From an uncultured Phycisphaeraceae bacterium (GTDB lineage Bacteria > Planctomycetota > Phycisphaerae > Phycisphaerales > UBA1924): a stretch of DNA of 64,000 nucleotides. The notes under the pieces are model-generated. The model ran no database searches. It had not been told where the DNA came from and saw nothing but the letters and a program-made list of their open reading frames with translations. The stretch lies in assembly GCA_937899905.1 (NCBI GenBank), contig CALCCF010000103.1, positions 1 to 64,000 of the forward strand, given 5' to 3'. Position numbers and translations under genes: made by a program. How positions within the stretch are numbered: position 1 is the stretch's first letter; each line of letters starts with the position of its first letter. This document shows positions 29,063 to 41,017 of this stretch, piece by piece.

Positions 29063-29526
29063 GGGGACGACTCCTTAGTGCGGGGGACGCGATCGCGACC
29101 CTCGCTCATGGCGGTGAGGCACACCGCCGACCGGGGGAACAGGAATAACACGATGCGGTGATGGCTGCGGTCCCTGGGGTGGGCCGCGTGCTTGCCAGTA
29201 CCGACCACACTGGCGAGAACCGGGCCGATGGGGTGACACGGCCGGCTCAAAAAAAAATGCGTGGTCGGCAATCTGTCGATTTCGTGAGGATCCGTGTCCC
29301 CCGGCCACGATAAATCGCGCCTGAGCTACATGGGCAAAGAGAATTGGGCTCTGGATTGGGCGGCGCGTCCCCGACAATCCACCAGCCGCATCGGAGTCAC
29401 CCAGCCATGCAGATCGAGGCACCCACTGCCGATCAATGCTGGATATCGCCAGGACCCCGTTTAGACTGTCGGCATGGCCCGCTCCAGAAGAACCGCCTCA
29501 GTCCACATCGCCGCGAGGTCAGCCGC
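29063..29526. other. Divergent intergenic region before the ECF sigma gene
   Basis: About 460 bp between the dockerin-tailed gene (-) and the sigma factor (+). It holds an A9 run at 29250-29258, unusual in this GC-rich sequence, and the Shine-Dalgarno of the minus-strand gene next to 29063. The reading frames in the track are not convincing. Both promoters should be here but I cannot place them with confidence. Confidence 0.45.
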
Positions 29527-30168
29527 GTGACGCCGCGTGAGCCGATTCGGGGCGAGGACGTCACGGTCCTTCTTGCCGCTTCGGCATCGGGGGGAGTCGA
29601 GGCCCGGGATCGACTGGCGGGCATCCTGCATGCGGAACTGCACGCGATGGCTCGGGCACGCATGCGCGGCGAGCGGCCCGATCACACGCTTGGCGCCACG
29701 GCCCTGGTCAACGAGACCTTCCTCCGGCTATTCCAGACCGCCGACCATGCGGAAACGCACGCCGATCTAAGTTGGCGTGACCGCCACGCATTCTTTGCAG
29801 CCGCCGCGACCGCGATGCGTCGGGTCTTAATCGATCACGCTCGCGCTCGCGCGACGGTGAAGCGTGGCGGTGGCGAGCGCCCCCGAACGCTGGTAGTCGC
29901 GGCCGATGCCGTTGCGGCCGCCCAGTCGCTCGAACCCAGCGACTTCTTGGCCCTCGATGAGGCGATGGGCCGGTTGGTATCGGTTGACGATCGGGCCGCC
30001 GAGGTCACGCGCCTGAAGTTCTTTGCGGGCCTTGATAGCAACGAGATTGCCGAACTCTTGGGCGTGTCTTCGCGCACCGTAAAGCGCGACTGGGAGTTTG
30101 CTAAGGCATGGCTCGCCGCATTTCTCGCCGACGAGAAGGCGTCGGATGACCAGAGCGAACAGGCCTGA
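29527..30168 (+). CDS. ECF-type RNA polymerase sigma factor (planctomycete Sig-70_X6/ECF family)
   Basis: 213 aa. Region 2 is represented by RPDHTLGATALVNETFLRL and WRDRHAFFAAAATAMRRVLIDHARAR, the characteristic pattern of the planctomycete-expanded ECF group; region 4 has the helix-turn-helix ELLGVSSRTVKRDWEFAKAWL. It should direct RNA polymerase to a dedicated set of promoters. The start is chosen at GTG 29527 (weak GAGG about 12 bases upstream); the track extends 60 codons further upstream without support. The kinase gene starts 3 bp after its stop, so the two are co-expressed and the kinase may control the sigma factor. Confidence 0.9.
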   Translation: MTPREPIRGEDVTVLLAASASGGVEARDRLAGILHAELHAMARARMRGERPDHTLGATALVNETFLRLFQTADHAETHADLSWRDRHAFFAAAATAMRRVLIDHARARATVKRGGGERPRTLVVAADAVAAAQSLEPSDFLALDEAMGRLVSVDDRAAEVTRLKFFAGLDSNEIAELLGVSSRTVKRDWEFAKAWLAAFLADEKASDDQSEQA

Positions 30169-30171
30169 CCG

Positions 30172-33100
30172 ATGTTGAGCCCAGGCCAATGGAGCGAAGC
30201 CAAGAGGCTGTTTTCCGAGTTGTCCGAGCTCGATCCCGAACTGCGTCTCCCGCATCTCGAAGCGTCGGGCGTCGACGCTGAGAGCCGCACGCAGGTCCTC
30301 AAGCTTCTCGAGGCCTTCGATGGTGGATCGGAGTTCCTTTCCGCGCCGACACGTCGGCGGTCGAATCATGAGCCGCGCTCGACCATCGCGGCGGGGCAGC
30401 ACATCGCCGGATACACGATCGTCCGGGAGATCGGGCGTGGCGGGATGGGCACCGTGTACGAGGCGGTCCAGGCGAGCCCAAAGCGGCGTGTCGCGCTCAA
30501 GGTGCTGCGGGCGGACATCGCCTCTCAGAGGACAATCGACCGCTTCGTCCGCGAGGGCGAGGTACTGGCGCGTCTGGAACACCCTGGCGTCGCACGCGTC
30601 TTCGAGACCGGGAGGGCCAAGGACGACGACGGCCGGGCCCGGCCCTTCATCGCCATGCAGTTCATCGAGCACGCGGCGCCCGTGACCGCGTTCGTGCAGG
30701 ATCACGGGCTCGCTGACCACGCCAAGCTCGAGCTGATGGTTGCGATCTGCCACGCGGTCCACTACGGCCACCAACGCGGCATCATCCATCGAGACATCAA
30801 GCCGAACAACCTCCTGGTTGGAACGGATGGCATCCCGCGCATTATCGACTTTGGCGTGGCTCGAACCGTGGACGCCGAGGATTCGATCGCCGCGAACGAC
30901 ACGATCGCGCACGAGATCCTTGGCACTCTCCGATACATGAGCCCCGAACAGTGCGCCGGCCGGGCGAACGAGGTGGACGTACGCACGGATGTGTACGCGC
31001 TCGGAGTGGTTCTCTATGAGGTGTTGCTCGGGCACCTGCCGTACGAATTCACCACCGATTCGCTCGTCGATATTCCCCGAGTCATTGTAGAGCACACGCC
31101 GCTCCCTCCAAGTCGCAAGCTCGACGCAGACCTGCAGGCCATCATCTACAAGGCACTCGAGAAGCGGCCGGATGACCGGTACCCGTCCGCCGAGGCGCTG
31201 GCGACCGACCTCCGGCGTTATCTCGCGGGCGAACCGATCGAAGCGAAGCGCGATCGAGCGTGGTACGTGCTGACGAAGACGCTCCGCCGATATCGCCGGA
31301 CCGTGTCGTTGGTCGCGACAGCGTTCGTGGTATTGTGTGGTGTGGCGGTCTGGCTCGGGCTGATGTACGTTCGTGCCGAGCGCGATGCTATGGAGCTGCG
31401 GCGCCTGGACTACTTGCAGACGATCGCTCTTGCCGAGCGCGAGCTGGAATCGTCCCGTACCGGTGAGCTACGACGTTTATTGGAGGGCTGCCCAGAGGAG
31501 ATGCGCGGCTGGGAGTGGGACTATCTCGATCGACGATCCGACGAGAGCATCGCGACGATCCGGACCAGGCCAAATGTGGCTGGAGCAACTTCGCCGGATG
31601 GGTGCCTCTTCGCAACCGGTACACGCAACGGTGTCGTGGAGATCTGGGACATCCAATCTCAGACGCTTGTAACGGACGTTGAAATCGACGCGAACTTCGT
31701 TGAGAGCCTGTCGTTCTCAGCCGATGGCATGAGGCTTGCCGTTGGAACGCGTGCTTCTGCCGATGACTACATCATCGACTTGGCGTCGATGGACGTCGCT
31801 GTTTCCATTAACGCAGACCAGGGCATCAAGACAGTCTGCTTCACTCCTCGTACGGACAAGCTTGTAACGGCGTCGGCTAACGGTGCGCTCGACATTCGCG
31901 ATCGAGTGACGGGTGAGATCGTCGATTCGCTCTCCACTCGCGGATCGTGGGCGACGGCTTTGGCCTCAAACGCCGACGGTTCACTCTTGCTGAGCGGGCA
32001 CGAAGATGGTTCGGTCCGACTGTGGGATCTTGCGACAGGCGAACTGGTGTTCGAGTCCAGAGAGTCGCACAGCGATCGGGTGTCGACGGTGGCGCTATCC
32101 AGTGACGGCCACTTGATCTTGTCAGGAAGCTGGGACAACACGATCAGGGCATGGACGACTGAGGGTCATCAGGCCGACTTGCGCATGTCCGCCGGCGACT
32201 TGGTGCGATCGATCTCGCTTACCGCAGATGGATCGACTCTGCTCGTCGTGACGCCGACTACCGTGGAAATCCGCGATGGCCGAAGCCGGGTCGTCGAGCG
32301 TCAACTTGTCGGCCAATCCAATGGCCTTGGCGGGGCCCTGCTTCCGAACACGTACGGCCAGAGCCAGATTCTCACGTGGTCGTCCGAGTCCGTTCAGCTC
32401 TGGAACGCCAGGTCGCGAACGGGGGCGTACGAGCTGCTCTCAGGTCAACAGCGCATCGATGCGGTCGCCGAGTCCTCATGCGGACGGTGGGTGGCCGCGG
32501 CCCAGCGCGGCGGCCGGATCCAGACATGGGATGGTGGTCGCACCGGGTCGACACTCGAGCTCGCGAGCGGTGCCAGCCGGGTGTATCGCTTGGCCTTCTC
32601 TCCCTCGGGCGAGCATCTCGCGGCCGTTTGCGACGACGGTTCTCTGCGAATCTGGCTCGTCGAGTCGGGTGATCTTGTCCATGACGCTCCGGACGCTGGA
32701 ATGCCGGTTCACGTCGCGTGGTCCTCTGCAGACGAAGTCGTCGTCGCGACCCACTACGACATCATCGTGGCCTGGCGGCTTGGCGTAGACGAGCCCATCT
32801 GGACACAACCCGCGGACCAGGGAGGGTTCGGTGCGATCGCGGTCTCTCCCGACTTCGCGTATGTGGCAACCGGAGGCCAAGACGGTTCGATCAAGATCTG
32901 GAACAACCGTGTTCGGGGGCTCCAGCAGGTCGGCGTGCTCGACGGGCACTCCACGCTGATTGGTGATCTGGCATGGTCGCCCGATGGCAGCATGCTCGCG
33001 TCCGGATCGAATGACGAGGAGATTGTGATCTGGGATGTGGCCTCCCGATCGCAGTTGCACCGGCTGCTTGGCCACGAGGGTCTGATCAAGTCTGTAGATT

Positions 33101-33321
33101 TTGATCCAACATCGACTCGCCTGATATCCGCGGGCTGGGAAGGGACGCTCCGTCTTTGGGACACTTCGAGCGGAGAACTCGTCCTTCGCTTGCAGGGCCA
33201 TCGCGGCATCGTTATGGGTGCCCAATTCTCGCAAGATGGCCGCCGTGTCATCAGCGGAGGTAGCGACGGGTCGGTGCGAGTGTGGGACGCCGGCCCCTTG
33301 CGCGGTCCCCGGATGCGCTAG
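30172..33321 (+). CDS. Membrane Ser/Thr protein kinase with C-terminal WD40 propeller(s)
   Basis: 1049 aa. The kinase domain covers about residues 80-350: glycine loop EIGRGGMGTVYEA, ATP Lys in VALKVL (residue 110), catalytic HRDIKPNN (about 206), DFGVART (about 226) and the APE-like MSPEQC. One membrane segment follows at about 377-398 (LVATAFVVLCGVAVWLGLMYV). The extracytoplasmic part has a coiled-coil-like linker and about twelve WD40 repeats (e.g. DGSVRLWDLATGE, DGSIKIWNN, DGSVRVWDAG), enough for one large or two smaller propellers. It is paired with the ECF gene 3 bp upstream, a linkage known from planctomycetes. The WD40 part is the probable sensor or binding platform. Confidence 0.93.
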   Translation: MLSPGQWSEAKRLFSELSELDPELRLPHLEASGVDAESRTQVLKLLEAFDGGSEFLSAPTRRRSNHEPRSTIAAGQHIAGYTIVREIGRGGMGTVYEAVQASPKRRVALKVLRADIASQRTIDRFVREGEVLARLEHPGVARVFETGRAKDDDGRARPFIAMQFIEHAAPVTAFVQDHGLADHAKLELMVAICHAVHYGHQRGIIHRDIKPNNLLVGTDGIPRIIDFGVARTVDAEDSIAANDTIAHEILGTLRYMSPEQCAGRANEVDVRTDVYALGVVLYEVLLGHLPYEFTTDSLVDIPRVIVEHTPLPPSRKLDADLQAIIYKALEKRPDDRYPSAEALATDLRRYLAGEPIEAKRDRAWYVLTKTLRRYRRTVSLVATAFVVLCGVAVWLGLMYVRAERDAMELRRLDYLQTIALAERELESSRTGELRRLLEGCPEEMRGWEWDYLDRRSDESIATIRTRPNVAGATSPDGCLFATGTRNGVVEIWDIQSQTLVTDVEIDANFVESLSFSADGMRLAVGTRASADDYIIDLASMDVAVSINADQGIKTVCFTPRTDKLVTASANGALDIRDRVTGEIVDSLSTRGSWATALASNADGSLLLSGHEDGSVRLWDLATGELVFESRESHSDRVSTVALSSDGHLILSGSWDNTIRAWTTEGHQADLRMSAGDLVRSISLTADGSTLLVVTPTTVEIRDGRSRVVERQLVGQSNGLGGALLPNTYGQSQILTWSSESVQLWNARSRTGAYELLSGQQRIDAVAESSCGRWVAAAQRGGRIQTWDGGRTGSTLELASGASRVYRLAFSPSGEHLAAVCDDGSLRIWLVESGDLVHDAPDAGMPVHVAWSSADEVVVATHYDIIVAWRLGVDEPIWTQPADQGGFGAIAVSPDFAYVATGGQDGSIKIWNNRVRGLQQVGVLDGHSTLIGDLAWSPDGSMLASGSNDEEIVIWDVASRSQLHRLLGHEGLIKSVDFDPTSTRLISAGWEGTLRLWDTSSGELVLRLQGHRGIVMGAQFSQDGRRVISGGSDGSVRVWDAGPLRGPRMR

Positions 33322-33583
33322 CCCTGGTCTCCATGGATAGTCGTGCCGTGCACAGCTTTGGCGGCGATTGCCCAGCGGTGCAACGTGTAGATGAGAAGGG
33401 CGAACAAATCGAGAGGATCGAGTGCTGTAGTGAAGACACTCGGCCTAACCACCGATCGACGCGACGGAAGATGGGACACGTGCAGATTTCGAGATCGCTA
33501 ATCGCGCCTACTTACCCTCTTGCATCACACTTCCGCCAAATCCGAACGAACCACCTTGGAGCCGACAGGCTGGGGCGACCGGT

Positions 33584-35344
33584 CTATCCGCCGGATACGC
33601 CGCCGCCCTTGCGTGGGTCGGCCGCGCCGTCGAGGGCGCCGGTTTGTGGGTCGCGTCGGATGAGTTGGACGGCCCCGATGTCGGTCCGCTCCCGCAGCGC
33701 ATGCCCTCTCTTCGCAAGCCCAGCCTCGAGCCGAGTGCTTGGCCCGACGCCGTCCCAGGTTTCTATGAAGATGGCGTCCGGCAGCCATTGGTGGTGGATG
33801 CGCGGAGCGTCGACGGCTTCCGCCGCGGTGGCGGCGCCACGAAGCACGCGAAGCAAGGCCTGAGCCGTCGACGTGATGATGCGTGGCCCGCCCGACGCAC
33901 CCGCGACTGCCACGACCTCGCCATGGTCGTCGAGGATGATCGTCGGCGACATGCTCGAGAGCGGACGCTTGCCAGGCTCGGGTAGATTGTCGTCGGATTG
34001 AATGAGCCCGAATGCGTTGGCCTCACCAGCAATCGTCGTGAAGTCATCCATCTGATCGTTCAGGCAGAAGCCGAAGCCGCGTACGCCGACGAGCGAACCG
34101 AATGCGAGATTGATCGTCTCGGTGCACGCCACGGCGTTGCCTCGTGCATCGATCACGGAGATGTGGCTCGTGCCGCCGTCCTCCGGCAGCACTCGGATCA
34201 CGCCGTAAGCCGATGCATCGCGCACGGTGTTGGGCTCAATGGAACGAGCGACCCGCTCCAGTTCGGCGTCATCGAGCATCTGATCGACTGGGACGTCGGT
34301 AAACGCCGAATCGGCCATGTGCCGGGAGCGATCGGCGAAAGCGTGCTTCATGCTCTCGGCCAGCAAGTGTGCATCTGCAGCCTCAAGCCACCCCGTCACG
34401 GGGATGGTGAGGTCCAGCCGCTCGGCCAGCGACAAGATCTGCGCCACGGCAACACCACCGCTCGATGGTGGCGGCATGGACAGGACGCGATGCGACTCAA
34501 GCTCGTAGGAGACTGGCTCGACCACACGAATGGCATATCCCGCAAGATCCTGGTGAGTCAACACGCCGCCATCGGCGGTAACCGATGCCACGATCGCCTC
34601 GGCGATCTCGCCGCGGTAGAACGCGTCGGCACCATGTTCCGCGATCAGCCGGAGTGCTCGCGCCTGGCCCGGTAGCGTGATGCGTTCGCTAATCTCGATC
34701 GTTCCTTGCGCTGTCAGCCCACCCCAAACCAGCGGAAACCGTTCACGCCAGCGTGCATCGCGGCGAAAGCGGTCAGACAGCGATCGAGCGGTGCGCACGT
34801 GGTGGGCGTCGGCATCAAACCCACCCTCTGCCAACGCGATCGCGGGCTCGAGAACGGTCGCGCGATCCAGCGTGCCGTAGGTCTCCAGCGCATGCAGCAG
34901 GCCGGCGACCGTGCCAGGGACGGCAACCGCCATCCCACCCCGCTTTGACGCCTCCGGATCATCGAGTTCCGCATACGTCTGGGGGCCAACGCCAGCAGGG
35001 GACGTCTCACGATAATTGAGGGCAACGGTGGTGGTGCCGTGCCGCGGATCATCGTTGAGGTGGATGAGCATGAACCCGCCGCCACCAATACCGCACGCGT
35101 CGGAACGCACCACTGAGAGCGCGAAGCTGGTTGCGACAGCAGCGTCAACGGCGTTGCCGCCCTGCCGCAACATCTGAGCCCCCGCCTCGGCCGCAAGCGG
35201 ATGATCCGCCGCCACGAGCCCCGTGTGCGCTTGCGCTCGAGCCGTGGGCCCACCAGCGCGCATGGAAACGCATGCCGAAAGCATGAGCACGCCCAACATG
35301 CTGACGATCAAGCTCCAGCGGCCGGCCCTTTCAACCCTCATCAT
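33584..35344 (-). CDS. ggt: Gamma-glutamyltransferase, exported lipoprotein
   Basis: 586 aa. Signal peptide with lipobox MLSAC directs it to the periplasmic side. The GGT proenzyme pattern is present: VVAADHPLAAEAGAQMLRQGGNAVDAAVATSFALSVV at the start, the autocleavage/catalytic Thr in GGTSHISVID near residue 392, and the later SSMSPTIILDDHG and GGPRIITST. GGTs cleave or transfer gamma-glutamyl groups from glutathione-like peptides. The tandem ATGATG at 35344/35341 lies inside the 3' end of the AstE-like gene (14-bp overlap) with GGGAG about 9 bases upstream, so translation is coupled to that gene. Confidence 0.94.
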   Translation of the reverse strand: MMRVERAGRWSLIVSMLGVLMLSACVSMRAGGPTARAQAHTGLVAADHPLAAEAGAQMLRQGGNAVDAAVATSFALSVVRSDACGIGGGGFMLIHLNDDPRHGTTTVALNYRETSPAGVGPQTYAELDDPEASKRGGMAVAVPGTVAGLLHALETYGTLDRATVLEPAIALAEGGFDADAHHVRTARSLSDRFRRDARWRERFPLVWGGLTAQGTIEISERITLPGQARALRLIAEHGADAFYRGEIAEAIVASVTADGGVLTHQDLAGYAIRVVEPVSYELESHRVLSMPPPSSGGVAVAQILSLAERLDLTIPVTGWLEAADAHLLAESMKHAFADRSRHMADSAFTDVPVDQMLDDAELERVARSIEPNTVRDASAYGVIRVLPEDGGTSHISVIDARGNAVACTETINLAFGSLVGVRGFGFCLNDQMDDFTTIAGEANAFGLIQSDDNLPEPGKRPLSSMSPTIILDDHGEVVAVAGASGGPRIITSTAQALLRVLRGAATAAEAVDAPRIHHQWLPDAIFIETWDGVGPSTRLEAGLAKRGHALRERTDIGAVQLIRRDPQTGALDGAADPRKGGGVSGG

Positions 35345-36701
35345 GGCTCGTCTCTCCCAGGTCGTGAACATCACTCGGCAGTAGATCCAAGGCATGGCGG
35401 CGAGCGATCCAGTCCGTTGGTCGCTCGTTCGGCAGGGCCGCCTGCTCTCCGCCTCGCAGCGCAAAGCGCAGCACGCCGAAGACCGATCGCACAACACCAA
35501 GCACGACGCCGCGAACACGCGCGTGCCACGGCATGTAGGGCGTGTGGATCCATCGCACGAGACGATATCCGAACAGGTGCAAAAGCTCGCGACGCAGGAT
35601 GGCCGCGTACTCGGGCGCGACCACGATGGTGTGCGGCTCGTCTTTGCGGCGCCGAACGCCTGGGAACAGCATTGGCAGGATCGCGTGCATCGCTCGTCGC
35701 CGACGCAGCCACGCCGAGAGCGTGAGCCAGATCGACCCGACCCGTGCGATCACGAAGAACGCATCGTCGCCCACACGCGGCGAGGGCTGGCGGTTGGGTA
35801 GGAACAGGAGACCGTTCGCGCTGGCCTTGAGTTCTCTGCCGTCCTCGCTCGCGAGCACCGTGCGCTCTGCGGCGACCGGCATAAACGCCGCCGCCCCGAG
35901 CCGCATCTCGAACGGCATGGCCCCGATCTCCACGCGCTGGCGGACGTCGTAGAAGTGGTCCTGCCGGCCGGCGGCGGCTTGGGATACGACTTCGAGCGCT
36001 GACTCACCACTCAACGTTTGCGGCGAACGACCGCTCATACCCAGAGCGGCAAGCGCGAGCAGCATAATCGCCTCGTGGACATCGGCCGAGCGCGGATCGT
36101 CGTGCAGCCCGGCCTCGAAGATGCATGACACGCAACCCAGCGCATTGGTCGCGTAGTCGATGAGGAGGCCCTGCAACTCCTCTTCCAAACCCAGGATCTT
36201 CGGCAGTGGGAAGCGAGCCGCGAACCGGCGGGCCGGAAGCGAGTCCTCGAGCGCGATGAACGCCGGGCTCTCGCTCGAGACGGTGTGCAGATCGAGCACG
36301 AAGACGCCGCCGCTGGTGCAGTCTTTGATCGACTTGAGGTGCCCCGACAGCTCGTCACGCTCGTGCTGCTCGGCCGACCCGTTGTGCGCCGGTCCCGGCT
36401 CAAGAAGGAAGGCCCGATTCAGATCCTCGTCGATGTACCGCTCGCGCAGCCACGGGGTGGAGGCCTCCACGCCGAGCGCTCGCAGGTTGCCCCGAAGCGA
36501 GACCAGGCGACCGGCGTGCAGACCGACGTCACCATCCCCGATGCGTTTGTGAACCCGTTGGGCCGCCTCGATGCCAGCCGGCTCGTTCGCGTGCAGCCCA
36601 CCGATGACCACCAGCGTCGGCCCGGCCTTTCCGCCCGAGACATCGCCGATGAATCTCGAGACGGCGTCCGTCGCCGCGGGGCGATCATCCGCCTGGATCA
36701 C
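35331..36701 (-). CDS. AstE/AspA-family zinc-dependent acylase (succinylglutamate desuccinylase/aspartoacylase-like)
   Basis: 456 aa. The N-terminal half is an M14-related AstE/AspA domain: GGLHANEPAG supplies the HxxE zinc ligands, RGNLRALG and DEDLNRAF the conserved substrate region, and FVLDLHTVSSESPAF the third His; FEAGLHDDP carries the catalytic Glu. The C-terminal 200 residues are unlike AstE and include a basic, partly hydrophobic segment (WLRRRRAMHAILPMLFPGVRRRKDE). The GTG at 36701 overlaps the upstream stop (GTGA) and has GAGGAG 8 bases before it, so the ORF-track start is too early. The substrate is unknown; the neighbours suggest a glutamyl or acyl-amino-acid compound. Confidence 0.82.
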   Translation of the reverse strand: MIQADDRPAATDAVSRFIGDVSGGKAGPTLVVIGGLHANEPAGIEAAQRVHKRIGDGDVGLHAGRLVSLRGNLRALGVEASTPWLRERYIDEDLNRAFLLEPGPAHNGSAEQHERDELSGHLKSIKDCTSGGVFVLDLHTVSSESPAFIALEDSLPARRFAARFPLPKILGLEEELQGLLIDYATNALGCVSCIFEAGLHDDPRSADVHEAIMLLALAALGMSGRSPQTLSGESALEVVSQAAAGRQDHFYDVRQRVEIGAMPFEMRLGAAAFMPVAAERTVLASEDGRELKASANGLLFLPNRQPSPRVGDDAFFVIARVGSIWLTLSAWLRRRRAMHAILPMLFPGVRRRKDEPHTIVVAPEYAAILRRELLHLFGYRLVRWIHTPYMPWHARVRGVVLGVVRSVFGVLRFALRGGEQAALPNERPTDWIARRHALDLLPSDVHDLGETSHDEG

Positions 36702-38629
36702 GGGCCTTGCTCCTCGTGCAGCGCACACTCGAGCAGGCTGCGGGCGATCCTCGCGTAATCACGATCGGAGATGATGCCAACGAGCCGATCGCCCTCAACC
36801 ACGGGTAGGCACGCGACGTTATGCTCGCCCATCAGCCGGATCGCCTCGAGCGTCGGCGTATTAGGCGAGACGGTGATCGGATCGCGAACCATGATCTCGG
36901 ACACCGGCAGCGTTCGAACGTCCTGGCCGTCTGAGTCTCGCACGAGAGCGCGCAGCAGCTTCCGATAGGAGACCAGGCCGACAAGCTGGTGCTTCTCGTC
37001 TTCGACCGGGACGTGCCGCAATCGCCGCCAATCCATGATCGATGCGACGAGATCGATGCATTCTCCCTCGCCCACGGTGTACAGATCGGTCGTCATGCAC
37101 TGCGAGACGAGCACGAACTCGCCCACCGAGTCGGACCCATCATCGCTGCGCACATCGTCCCACTCGTGAACGGGCCGCCGCGAGTCCTGGTTCTCGAGCA
37201 TTGATTGCGTGATGGCTGCCAAGCCGCGTTGGCGGCGGCCAGCACGATCGAGGCCGGTACACGCGTTGAGCGTCCATCGGGCGCCAGTGCGACCGGCCGA
37301 GACACGATGCTCGATGATGGACAGCGCCCGGTCGGCGTCGGTCCCATCGACACCCGCACGCTCAAGACCGCAGCGCGCGACAGGCAGGAACTCTTCCAGA
37401 ATCAGTCGATCGATCGGATGCTCGGCGCCGTCGATCCAGGCCATACGCACCGTGAGCCCGTCGCGTGCGGCTCTGAGGAAGTTGCCGCGCGCCGTCCTGA
37501 AGTCGAGCCGCTTCGACACGTCGGACCACTCAAGCGGGCCCTCCAGCATCAGGCCGATCCAAAACGCGGCGTTGGCGACCTCGTCAGAGATCGTCGGACC
37601 CGAGGGAAGCACGCGGTTCTCGATGCGCAGGTGCGGCTTGCCATCGGTCACGCCGAAGCACGGACGCATCCAGCGATACACAGAAGAGTTGAACGACTGC
37701 CACGCCTTCAGCTTGGGTATCCGGCCCACGCGGAGCTCTTCCATCGGATCAACCGGCTCCTCGACCTGCGCGTACACGAGTTGGCGGAACCGGGCGACGT
37801 CGGCTCGCAAGATCTCCAGAACGGACGACTCGACCCAATCCTCGCCGAAGCGCACACGGCCGAGCAGATCGCGATGCCCAGCCCTCTCGCGTCTGGTATC
37901 CAAAGCTTGCTGGAACGTTGCGATCCTTGTCTCGCGCCATAGCCGCTTGCCGAAGAGCAACGGCGAGTTCACCGCGGCGGCCAGCACGGGCGCCGTGACG
38001 GCAAGTGCCACGTTGTACGTGCAGGCAAACTCCTCGGGAGTGGTCTGGAAGTGCACCTGGAAGCTGGTATTGACCGACTCGAGCATCACGCTCGGGTGGC
38101 GCACCACCAACTCGTCGGCGCCATCGATCGTCATCTCGTAGTCGTCGCCACGCATCTTGCGCAGGGCCGCGTCGAGCCCGCTGTACCGCGGGTTGGGCAT
38201 GATGTTCTCGGTCGACAGGTGCGTTAGGTCGACCGTGGGGCAGATGCCAGTCATGAGAGCGCGAGCATCCAACCGCCGGCATTCCGAGTCGACAACGCCG
38301 TACAGGTCCTGCAATTGGGCTTCGAGCTGCGCGAAGCTCGTGGGCCCCAACTCAATCGGATCACAGTTGAACTCGACGTTGAACCGCGCAATCTCGGGCA
38401 CGACACGAGGGTCGTCGATCTGCTGGAGCAATTGCTCGGCGATCGGTGCCGGCTGCGCGGCGCGATCGACGAGGAACAGCTCCTGCTCAACCCCGATGCG
38501 GCGGCGGTCGGTCTCGAACAGACCGTCGTCGAGCATCTTCTCCATCGCGTCGAGGTCGCGGAGCACACGCCGCATCGCCAGGCGGTCGGCCTCGTCCCCA
38601 TCGGCGGTCTTGACGCTCTGCACACCCAT
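36698..38629 (-). CDS. Glutamate-cysteine ligase family 2 (GCS2)-like protein fused to two CBS domains
   Basis: 643 aa. Residues 40-400 match the GCS2/carboxylate-amine ligase family: RIGVEQELFLVD, FNVEFNCDPIELG, LMTGICPTVDL, NTSFQVHFQTTPEEF and ENRVLPSGPT are family blocks that form the Mg-ATP and glutamate site. Residues 515-640 are a CBS pair (CMTTDLYTVGEGECIDLVASIMDWRRLRHVPV; IMVRDPITVSPNTPTLEAIRLM), a module that usually binds adenine nucleotides. GCS2 proteins join Glu to Cys or other amines. Here the CBS pair suggests nucleotide control. It heads the overlapping run GCS2-AstE-GGT. Confidence 0.88.
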   Translation of the reverse strand: MGVQSVKTADGDEADRLAMRRVLRDLDAMEKMLDDGLFETDRRRIGVEQELFLVDRAAQPAPIAEQLLQQIDDPRVVPEIARFNVEFNCDPIELGPTSFAQLEAQLQDLYGVVDSECRRLDARALMTGICPTVDLTHLSTENIMPNPRYSGLDAALRKMRGDDYEMTIDGADELVVRHPSVMLESVNTSFQVHFQTTPEEFACTYNVALAVTAPVLAAAVNSPLLFGKRLWRETRIATFQQALDTRRERAGHRDLLGRVRFGEDWVESSVLEILRADVARFRQLVYAQVEEPVDPMEELRVGRIPKLKAWQSFNSSVYRWMRPCFGVTDGKPHLRIENRVLPSGPTISDEVANAAFWIGLMLEGPLEWSDVSKRLDFRTARGNFLRAARDGLTVRMAWIDGAEHPIDRLILEEFLPVARCGLERAGVDGTDADRALSIIEHRVSAGRTGARWTLNACTGLDRAGRRQRGLAAITQSMLENQDSRRPVHEWDDVRSDDGSDSVGEFVLVSQCMTTDLYTVGEGECIDLVASIMDWRRLRHVPVEDEKHQLVGLVSYRKLLRALVRDSDGQDVRTLPVSEIMVRDPITVSPNTPTLEAIRLMGEHNVACLPVVEGDRLVGIISDRDYARIARSLLECALHEEQGP

Positions 38630-38647
38630 CGTGAGCCTGCCCCACAG

Positions 38648-38782
38648 CTATGGCCGCAACCTCCCGGCCTCGAACACGTTAGGCGGGTACGGGGTCAGCA
38701 ATTCGGTCTTGGCTCGATCAAGCGCCGACACGAGGGTGCCAGGATCATCCGCGTGTCGGCGATACGAGTGGTCAGGAGTCAC
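38648..38782 (-). CDS. Small ORF (44 codons) between the M24 peptidase and GCS2-CBS genes
   Basis: Below the ORF-track cutoff. It reads VTPDHSYRRHADDPGTLVSA and ends FEAGRLRP before TAG; composition is balanced rather than the Arg/Pro/Ser-rich pattern of shadow frames. The GTG at 38782 has GGTGAG about 9 bases upstream, and the ORF fills most of the 179-bp gap, 26 bp after the peptidase stop and 18 bp before the GCS2 start. No homologue is recognised. It could be a leader or a small conserved protein of the cluster. Confidence 0.42.
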   Translation of the reverse strand: MTPDHSYRRHADDPGTLVSALDRAKTELLTPYPPNVFEAGRLRP

Positions 38783-38808
38783 CTTGGGTTCTCACCGGTT
38801 TCCGCCGA

Positions 38809-40158
38809 CTAGTCGAGCCGCTTGACGATCCCCTCCGTGAGCACCTCGCACCCATGCTCACGGATCACGATGTCATCCTCGATGCGCACGCCCTGGATCT
38901 CTTGGCGGATCGTGTCGATCGAGTCCCACTTCACGACGTCTGCGAACGACTCTCGCGTTTCAGCGACATCGATCAGTCCAGGGATGAAGTAGAGCCCCGG
39001 CTCGACCGTGAAGCCGTGGCCGGCCTCGAGCGGGATGTCAACACGAACGCCGACGCCACCCGGGCCCTTTCTCGGTGCCCGGCCCGGCAGCCGCCCGCCA
39101 GCGCCGCGAACGCCAAGGCCGATCATGTGGCCCACACCGTGCGGGAAGAACAGGCCCGCGACGCCGCGCTCGACCAACTCGGCCGGGTCGCCCTTGAGCG
39201 CGCCCAGCCCGACGAGCCCCTCCAAGACAACCTCGCTGCACCGGCGATGCACGTCGTGCCACTCCACGCCGGGCTTGCACATGGCAATACCGGCTTCTTC
39301 GGAGTCGATCACGATGTTGATCACGTCTCGTTGCGTCTGGCTCGGCTGCCCCACCGGCCACGTGCGCGTGACATCGCCGGCGTATCGCTTGTACGCCGCC
39401 CCTGCGTCAACCAGCACGCACTCGCCCTTGTTGATCGCACGCTGGCCCGGCGCAAAGTGCAGCACAGCCGCGTTCGGCCCGCTCCCGACGATCGTGTCGT
39501 AGGGCGTGCCATCGCCGCCGTTGCGGAAGAACTCGGCCTCGATCTCGACCTGCAACTGCCGCTCGGTCATGCCCGCGGCCTCGCCGCTCGTGAGCATTCG
39601 GTGCGCGTACGCGTGGCCCGCCGCGGTCGCCGCACAGGCTTGGCGCATGCGCTCGATCTCGACGTCGTCGAGCACGCGGCGGGCGTGCAAGAACGCATCC
39701 TCCAACTCGGCGCTCAAGCCTCGATCGACTCCGCCCGCAAAGTCGGCAACCGGACACCCGATCGCCGCGACCGTGCGCCCCCGCCGTTGCGCAAGCCAGG
39801 TCGTGAATTCGGGCAGAGGAGCCCCCTCCCAGGTCACGTCGCCCTCCCACGTCCGATGGGCTTGGGTGACCTCGGGCGCGAACGCCCGCCAAGGCTCGTC
39901 GCCGCCCTCAGCCAGATCAACCGCCAGGACCCCACCCGGGCACTGCTGCTCGGTCAGGTAGAAATACGCGCTGTGGGCCATGAAGGGGTACACGCGATCG
40001 TGCTGGCCGGGCACGGGGATCATCTCGCCCGCGCCGAGCAGCACGATGGGCAACGCCGCGTGCCCGCCAAGTACCTGATCGGCCCTCTCCCGCAGCGCAG
40101 CGGCGGTACGTTGGCGACGTGCGAGGAGGTGGGTCTGCGGGGTCTGGGAGCTGGTCAT
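38809..40158 (-). CDS. M24B-family Xaa-Pro aminopeptidase
   Basis: 449 aa. N-terminal creatinase-like domain with PGQHDRVYPFMAHSAYFYLTEQ, then a pita-bread catalytic domain with all five metal ligands: VDAGAAYKRYAGDVTRTWPV (two Asp), FFPHGVGHMIGLGV (His), FTVEPGLYF (Glu) and GVRIEDDIVI (Glu). The length matches PepP. It releases N-terminal residues preceding proline. It lies on the same strand as, and 180 bp upstream of, the GCS2-AstE-GGT run and may feed amino acids into the same pathway. Confidence 0.92.
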   Translation of the reverse strand: MTSSQTPQTHLLARRQRTAAALRERADQVLGGHAALPIVLLGAGEMIPVPGQHDRVYPFMAHSAYFYLTEQQCPGGVLAVDLAEGGDEPWRAFAPEVTQAHRTWEGDVTWEGAPLPEFTTWLAQRRGRTVAAIGCPVADFAGGVDRGLSAELEDAFLHARRVLDDVEIERMRQACAATAAGHAYAHRMLTSGEAAGMTERQLQVEIEAEFFRNGGDGTPYDTIVGSGPNAAVLHFAPGQRAINKGECVLVDAGAAYKRYAGDVTRTWPVGQPSQTQRDVINIVIDSEEAGIAMCKPGVEWHDVHRRCSEVVLEGLVGLGALKGDPAELVERGVAGLFFPHGVGHMIGLGVRGAGGRLPGRAPRKGPGGVGVRVDIPLEAGHGFTVEPGLYFIPGLIDVAETRESFADVVKWDSIDTIRQEIQGVRIEDDIVIREHGCEVLTEGIVKRLD

Positions 40159-40240
40159 GCAGCGAGTCTATGGGCGATCCCCGCACCGTCGCCCGGGCCC
40201 AAGCAAGCTCCGAGAGCGCCGCTGTCCGCTGCCACGCAGA

Positions 40241-40259
40241 CAAATTCTCACCGAATTTG
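40241..40259. promoter_or_regulatory. AT-rich 7-bp inverted repeat (operator candidate) before the peroxiredoxin
   Basis: CAAATTC-TCACC-GAATTTG is a perfect 7-bp inverted repeat with a 5-bp spacer, lying in the 226-bp divergent region between the M24 peptidase (-) and the 1-Cys peroxiredoxin (+). Its AT-rich arms stand out in this GC-rich DNA. The geometry suits a dimeric regulator; which one is unknown. Confidence 0.4.
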
Positions 40260-40384
40260 CGCAGGCGTGTCATGAACCGAACCGGAATCTCGCGACCACC
40301 CGGGCCGCAACCAAGGGTGCCGCGTGGGTGCCCGGAGTTGACCGCAGTTGCTTTACGCCGCGAACCAAGGAGCGCAGACACCCC

Positions 40385-41017
40385 ATGTCCATTCGCCTCG
40401 GAGACACCGCACCGGACTTCACCGCAACCTCAACCCAAGGAGAGATCAGCTGGCACGACTGGCTGGGCGACAGCTGGGGCGTGCTGTTCAGCCATCCGGC
40501 CGACTTCACCCCCGTGTGTACCACCGAGCTCGGCGCCGTCGCCAAGCTGAAGCCCGAGTTCGACAAACGCAACGTCAAAGTCGCCGGCCTGTCGGTCGAC
40601 CCGCTGGAGAGCCACCTCGACTGGGCGGGCGACATCGAGGAGACGCAGGGCGTCGCCCTCAACTTCCCGCTGATCGCCGACGACGATCGCGCCGTATCCG
40701 ACGCCTACGGCATGATCCACCCCAGCGCCGACAACACCATGACCGTGCGCTCGGTCTTCATCATCGGCCCGGACAAAAAGGTCAAGCTCACGCTGACCTA
40801 CCCCGCCAGCACCGGCCGAAACTTCGACGAGCTGCTGCGAGTGATCGACTCACTCCAGCTGACCGCCACGCACAAGCTCGCCACACCCGCCAACTGGCAG
40901 CACGGCGAGGACTGCATCATCGTCCCCGCCGTGAGCAACGATGAGGCGGAGGAACTGTTCCCGGGCGGTTTCAACGAAGTGAAGCCCTACCTGCGGACGA
41001 CCAAGCAACCGGCTTAG
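40385..41017 (+). CDS. 1-Cys (Prx6-type) peroxiredoxin
   Basis: 210 aa. The peroxidatic Cys is in SHPADFTPVCTTEL near residue 47, preceded by GDTAPDF. The C-terminal domain of about 60 residues (LATPANWQHGEDCIIVPAVSNDEAEELFPGGF) is characteristic of the Prx6/AhpC-TSA 1-Cys group. The ATG at 40385 is preceded by AAGGAG at about 13 bases, slightly long. It should reduce peroxides in the cytoplasm. It is the second peroxiredoxin in this window and belongs to a different subfamily from the one at 22.5 kb. Confidence 0.94.
   Translation: MSIRLGDTAPDFTATSTQGEISWHDWLGDSWGVLFSHPADFTPVCTTELGAVAKLKPEFDKRNVKVAGLSVDPLESHLDWAGDIEETQGVALNFPLIADDDRAVSDAYGMIHPSADNTMTVRSVFIIGPDKKVKLTLTYPASTGRNFDELLRVIDSLQLTATHKLATPANWQHGEDCIIVPAVSNDEAEELFPGGFNEVKPYLRTTKQPA

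Follow-up and report, generated by a model that had tools for sequence, protein, structure and literature searches.

Do three overlapping genes of an uncultured Phycisphaeraceae bacterium encode a pathway that makes a gamma-glutamyl compound and takes it apart again? The question arises from a window of 64,000 nt (contig CALCCF010000103.1), the whole stretch of DNA analyzed here, in which an original prediction made from the sequence alone had placed a CBS-fused ligase, a zinc amide hydrolase, and an exported gamma-glutamyltransferase in one translationally coupled module. We followed each protein through its sequence family, its predicted fold, and its genomic neighborhood.

Organization of the locus

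Examination of the open reading frames recovered the three minus-strand genes as predicted, encoding GCS2-CBS, AstE-like, and GGT proteins. The features of the locus are as follows.

36698-38629, minus strand: GCS2-CBS fusion gene, 643 aa, ATG start
37130..38629, minus strand: GCS2-type carboxylate-amine (glutamyl) ligase domain, residues 1-500 of the fusion, assigned by Pfam GCS2, motifs, and fold
36698..37129, minus strand: tandem CBS pair in the C-terminal part of the GCS2-CBS protein, assigned by two Pfam CBS matches and an AcuB-like fold
35331-36701, minus strand: AstE/aspartoacylase-type zinc amidohydrolase gene, 456 aa, GTG start, Pfam AstE_AspA_cat
33584-35344, minus strand: gamma-glutamyltransferase/hydrolase (GGT) gene, 586 aa, TIGR00066, lipobox-like signal
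38809..40158, minus strand: M24 (Xaa-Pro type) aminopeptidase, upstream of GCS2-CBS with a 179-bp gap, Pfam M24 at 194 bits

Both of the end-to-start overlaps that had been claimed are present. The GTG start of the AstE-like gene lies inside the sequence GTGA (36698-36701), giving a 4-bp overlap with the ligase stop codon, and has GAGGAG upstream of it; GGT has two candidate ATGs, and with translation from the first of them it overlaps the AstE-like gene by 14 bp. Purine-rich stretches precede both overlapping starts. The coordinates first given for the module, 35331-38629, need correction, since they span the first two genes only and leave GGT almost wholly outside. A scan of 33300-39000 turned up neither a sigma-70-like promoter nor an intrinsic terminator, a result that is weakly informative for such a genome.

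GCS2-CBS and AstE form a conserved pair

GCS2-CBS was detected in 66 of the 294 genomes of the window's phylum, with 41 to 72% identity for nearly full-length matches, and a profile of the AstE subfamily gave strong matches (E below 1e-70) in 48 of the same genomes. Both proteins occur in 46 genomes, GCS2-CBS alone in 20, AstE alone in 2 (G065 and G282, both fragmented or incomplete), and neither in 226, a co-occurrence with a Fisher value of 2.5e-35 that is uncorrected for kinship. Where both are present, they share one contig in 35 genomes and lie on different contigs in 11. AstE is directly downstream of GCS2-CBS on the same strand in 26 of the 42 neighborhoods fetched, as counted from tblastn matches and trimmed starts, with gaps of -4 to 223 bp; the 4-bp overlap (-4) recurs in 10 of 27 pairs, the window included. 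An adjacent pair with the same strand and order is also found in Gemmatimonadota (L032), and a contig search with one query sequence returned two Gemmatimonadota loci only. Distances in the gene trees of GCS2-CBS and AstE correlate (r = 0.59, 0/5000 permutations; 0.41 without the window's own genus), as joint inheritance would give. No other neighbor of the pair is conserved across the fetched neighborhoods.

The conserved unit is the two-gene pair of GCS2-CBS and AstE, well beyond chance. The three-gene order proposed for the window thus stands in part: the pair recurs in the phylum and in Gemmatimonadota, whereas GGT is attached only within the window's own family. An AstE subfamily that is so rarely found apart from a single kind of ligase points strongly, at the genomic level, to joint function. 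The ligase itself can probably work without AstE, since 20 of the 66 GCS2-CBS genomes, some of them fragmented assemblies, have no AstE of the subfamily.

We propose that GCS2-CBS and AstE act as one functional unit, an adenylate-controlled gamma-glutamyl make-and-break pair of cytoplasmic enzymes, and although this is the likeliest reading, we consider the case for it evenly balanced. What the sequences show directly is gene order, co-occurrence, intact motifs, and folds; the activities, a shared substrate, the CBS ligand, and the direction are inferred.

One genome without AstE (G239) has a carbon-nitrogen hydrolase of the nitrilase family 93 bp after GCS2-CBS (L036:9388-10221, plus strand), another amide hydrolase positioned as if in AstE's place; an ATP-grasp (PF14397/RimK-like) gene comes next, on the opposite strand.

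The ligase domain

The window protein scores 21.6 bits against Pfam GCS2 (PF04107; cut-off, 21), a borderline match for this member, and for that reason a PF04107 search of its own genome did not pick it up. Among 31 relatives, GCS2 was matched in 28 (E <= 0.01; best, 1.8e-11) and CBS in all 31. Carboxylate-amine/ammonia ligases of the GS fold are characterized by a GhExE motif in strand 1, acidic residues in strands 2 and 3, [HDQ]x[NH] in strand 4, ExR in strand 6, and active-site arginines (Iyer et al. 2008, PMC2588565). Every one of these motifs is present in GCS2-CBS, where G46xE48xE50, E79, E86, Q191xH193, R235, R322, and R335xE337xR339 are invariant in 19 aligned sequences, and the invariance extends to CBS-less actinobacterial and haloarchaeal homologues with 27 to 35% identity in the alignment.

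A search of the GCS2 profile against PDB sequences gave no match, so a fold search was needed. In the AF2 model (pLDDT 88), the best Foldseek matches of the ligase part are plant GCL (2gwc) and YbdK (1r8g), which, with the motifs, places the domain among the GS-fold carboxylate-amine ligases. The ligase prediction is upheld: the protein combines a CBS pair with a carboxylate-amine ligase domain in which no motif residue of the superfamily is missing, and its active-site motifs are intact in the alignment. The GS-type fold, GhExE, the acidic strands 2 and 3, QxH, ExR, and the arginines are common to YbdK, plant GCL, the PafA superfamily, and GCS2-CBS. Unlike the solved GCS2 enzymes, however, GCS2-CBS has no sequence match to any of them and falls below all of the NCBIfam cut-offs for glutamate-cysteine ligase models (YbdK, 18.3 versus 176.4; EgtA, 18.1 versus 370.8; PRK13517, 22.8 versus 332). 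Because its sequence is far from every characterized ligase, glutamate is named here as the presumed acyl donor. With ATP as phosphate donor, the GCS2 domain would phosphorylate glutamate or a similar acid at its side-chain carboxylate and would then couple the activated acid to an amine, which an amino acid probably provides.

The CBS fusion was found in 31/31 GCS2-CBS members scanned, and the CBS-less homologues encountered all came from plasmid records of actinobacteria and haloarchaea. Two CBS-less relatives with 34 to 36% identity (L074:5926-7404 and L075:5962-7470) lie on Streptomyces and Tsukamurella plasmids and carry the annotation glutamate-cysteine ligase family protein; the one on the Streptomyces plasmid sits near a nickel hydrogenase cluster.

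Low-mass thiols

The haloarchaeal gamma-glutamyl-cysteine system provides a gamma-glutamyl thiol in one step, without GshB. By analogy, GCS2-CBS could be a glutamate-cysteine ligase that would likewise give such a thiol without GshB; gamma-glutamyl-cysteine, suggested at the outset as one candidate product, would then be the low-mass thiol of the organism, recycled by AstE and GGT. This possibility is favored by the closest solved fold, that of plant glutamate-cysteine ligase, and by the published remark that a thiol is neither documented nor predicted for Planctomycetes (PMC6282198). Moreover, the claim that no glutathione synthetase is present was borne out in the window's own genome (G000; assembly 95% complete), where a TIGR01380 search at 1e-20 revealed no bona fide GshB, the only glutathione-synthetase-like protein is a 33-bit ATP-grasp, and PF10079 found no BshC. 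Across the phylum, however, BshC was matched in 148 of 294 genomes, including 46 of the 66 with GCS2-CBS, which is enrichment and not exclusion; in contrast to the haloarchaeal system, the distribution of GCS2-CBS overlaps that of bacillithiol genes. In addition, GshB-like ATP-grasp proteins that score more than 120 bits occur in 13 GCS2-CBS genomes, and four members of the window's genus are devoid of any GCS2-CBS. Supply of a substitute thiol is therefore not what GCS2-CBS does in general, and gamma-glutamyl-cysteine is disfavored as a general product, although such a role is possible in the window's own family. Overall, we judge the thiol explanation unlikely.

The weak ATP-grasp protein of the window's genome is encoded far from the window (L078:991-1983, plus strand; G000:C82) and could be a second ligase, but it is not GshB. 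Elsewhere, a GCS2-CBS genome carries three tandem GshB-like ATP-grasp genes that score below the TIGR01380 cut-off (G042:C57:3637-6676), and a similar tandem pair is found at G044:C223.

The AstE-like hydrolase

The AstE-like protein scores 54.7 bits against AstE_AspA_cat (PF24827; cut-off, 25), and in the Foldseek comparison E. coli AstE (1yw6) is its best match, followed by DoeB, CphZ, and aspartoacylase. H37, E40, H139, R88, N95, R96, and E196 are invariant in the alignment and presumably correspond to the aspartoacylase active site; the zinc ligands (H37, E40, and H139) and the catalytic E196 that the family requires are kept. The predicted active site is thus intact, in agreement with the anticipated zinc amide hydrolase. 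Zinc ligands, substrate arginines, catalytic Glu, and the fold of the catalytic and C-terminal beta domains are common to this subfamily, AstE, aspartoacylase, DoeB, and CphZ. It differs from them in its tie to GCS2-CBS, in a conserved basic tail, and in equivalog scores far below cut-off (TIGR03242 succinylglutamate desuccinylase, 24.6 versus 305.65; PRK02259 aspartoacylase, 30.1 versus 180). The C-terminus, at first described as an unusual 200-residue extension, proved to be mostly the ordinary AstE/ASPA-type beta domain, followed by the family-specific basic tail. Proteins of the window's genus have a helical insert at about residues 392-416, and short members of the subfamily (312-323 aa) have no basic tail.

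The AstE matches of G107, G154, and G199 each have one in-frame stop within the aligned stretch. The G107 open reading frame stops at 312 aa and is possibly a natural short form, not a pseudogene.

Within the make-and-break reading, the AstE-like zinc enzyme would hydrolyze an acyl-amino-acid amide from the pathway in which the ligase works. In the simplest case this amide is what the ligase makes, or its precursor, so that the pair would make and break a small glutamyl amide; the two enzymes may instead act on different molecules of one pathway. Activity of this kind has a precedent in the cyanophycin dipeptide hydrolase CphZ, a member of the AstE family that cleaves beta-Asp-Arg, a dipeptide linked through a side chain (PMC10206079). 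It is also conceivable that the pair belongs to a biosynthetic route toward a secondary or storage metabolite, in which glutamate, attached by the ligase, serves as a carrier or protecting group and AstE takes off an acyl protecting group. The patchy distribution across genera would fit such a pathway, as would the ability of the AstE relatives DoeB and AstE, both among the fold matches, to free acyl groups from amino-acid derivatives; but no further biosynthetic gene is conserved beside the pair, so the pathway would have to consist of two steps only or be scattered, and we find this account rather unlikely.

The CBS pair

Two CBS copies were recognized by Pfam in the window protein (86.9 bits), and the second contains a ligand motif of the T/S-x-x-D type, read from the sequence as GIISDRD. 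The nearest solved folds are AcuB (2o16) and complexes of AcuB with AMP or ADP. This similarity of the modeled fold, together with the one canonical motif, suggests that an adenosine nucleotide may be the ligand; its binding by the CBS pair would tune ligase activity to the energy state.

The CBS matches include ProV/OpuCA-type CBS pairs, raising the alternative that GCS2-CBS and AstE make and degrade a compatible solute, such as a gamma-glutamyl or N-acyl dipeptide, and that the CBS pair, like that of OpuA, responds to ionic strength and not to adenylates. An operon that combines synthesis with hydrolysis would suit a solute made and removed on demand, yet the CBS folds are nearest to AcuB with AMP/ADP, and the conserved neighbors include neither an osmolyte transporter nor a mechanosensitive channel; we regard this alternative as quite improbable. 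Still more remote is the idea that the ligase glutamylates a protein or another macromolecule, as PafA joins Pup, and that the AstE-like enzyme, with its basic tail, erases the mark: the GS-fold ligases include Pup ligase (PMC2588565), the Foldseek matches of the AstE-like protein include carboxypeptidase CCP5 with Glu-peptide analogues, and the basic tail is conserved, but no gene for a small modifier or a substrate recurs near the pair, the nearest ligase folds are those of small-molecule ligases, and the short AstE members do without the tail.

Relation to known systems

In its fullest form, the make-and-break reading describes a nucleotide-gated glutamyl-amide cycle that is present in at least two bacterial phyla, yields neither glutathione nor bacillithiol, and is undescribed; we put this forward tentatively and hold it to be somewhat doubtful. 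No prior description of a CBS-fused ligase or of the GCS2-CBS and AstE pair was found in the openly accessible papers searched, which is limited evidence. The work of Iyer et al. from 2009 on amidoligases reportedly surveys the neighborhoods of such genes and may contain an earlier mention. Each of the proteins is a member of a known superfamily. The FluG-type gamma-glutamyl ligase/hydrolase fusion likewise combines a GS-type gamma-glutamyl ligase with a second enzyme domain, although it differs from our pair in its ligase and partner families, in being a single polypeptide, and in being fungal (PMC6478659). Both enzymes of the pair can be expressed and assayed. Identifying the product would extend the known metabolites of bacteria in which the chemistry of low-mass thiols and gamma-glutamyl compounds is for the most part undescribed, and it would also show control of a GS-fold ligase by a CBS pair.

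GGT and other neighbors

The window copy of GGT clearly belongs to its family, with 431.2 bits against TIGR00066 (cut-off, 357.85), 505 bits against Pfam GGT, and a full-length alignment to E. coli GGT; only its neighborhood and its lipobox-type signal are unusual. The signal, VLMLSAC, backs the prediction of an exported enzyme.

GGT is located behind the pair in the window, in two further genomes of the window's genus, and in four additional genera belonging to the family. This arrangement, seen in 5 of the family's 12 GCS2-CBS genera, was found nowhere else; in other genera of the family, GGT lies elsewhere. Of eight examined family members that belong to other genera and have no GCS2-CBS, six carry a GGT with 51 to 55% identity, and the four genomes of the window's genus without GCS2-CBS are also without a close GGT. 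The window's own genome encodes a second GGT. Since the linkage is limited to the family and GGT is common there without GCS2-CBS, we rejected GGT as an obligatory part and regard it as an optional, generic partner. Its repeated attachment to the pair, in five genera, nevertheless hints at a gamma-glutamyl product. In some genera of the window's family, then, an exported GGT would have joined the operon and could strip the gamma-glutamyl group from extracellular material.

The M24 aminopeptidase had been considered a supplier or user of amino acids for the module. It was rejected as a part because no M24 match occurred in any of the other neighborhoods.

Judged from their translations, an ECF-type sigma factor and then a large Ser/Thr kinase with WD40 repeats are encoded on the plus strand at 29344-33321 of the window, and a peroxiredoxin-like gene at 40157-41017, also on the plus strand, is divergent from the M24 aminopeptidase.
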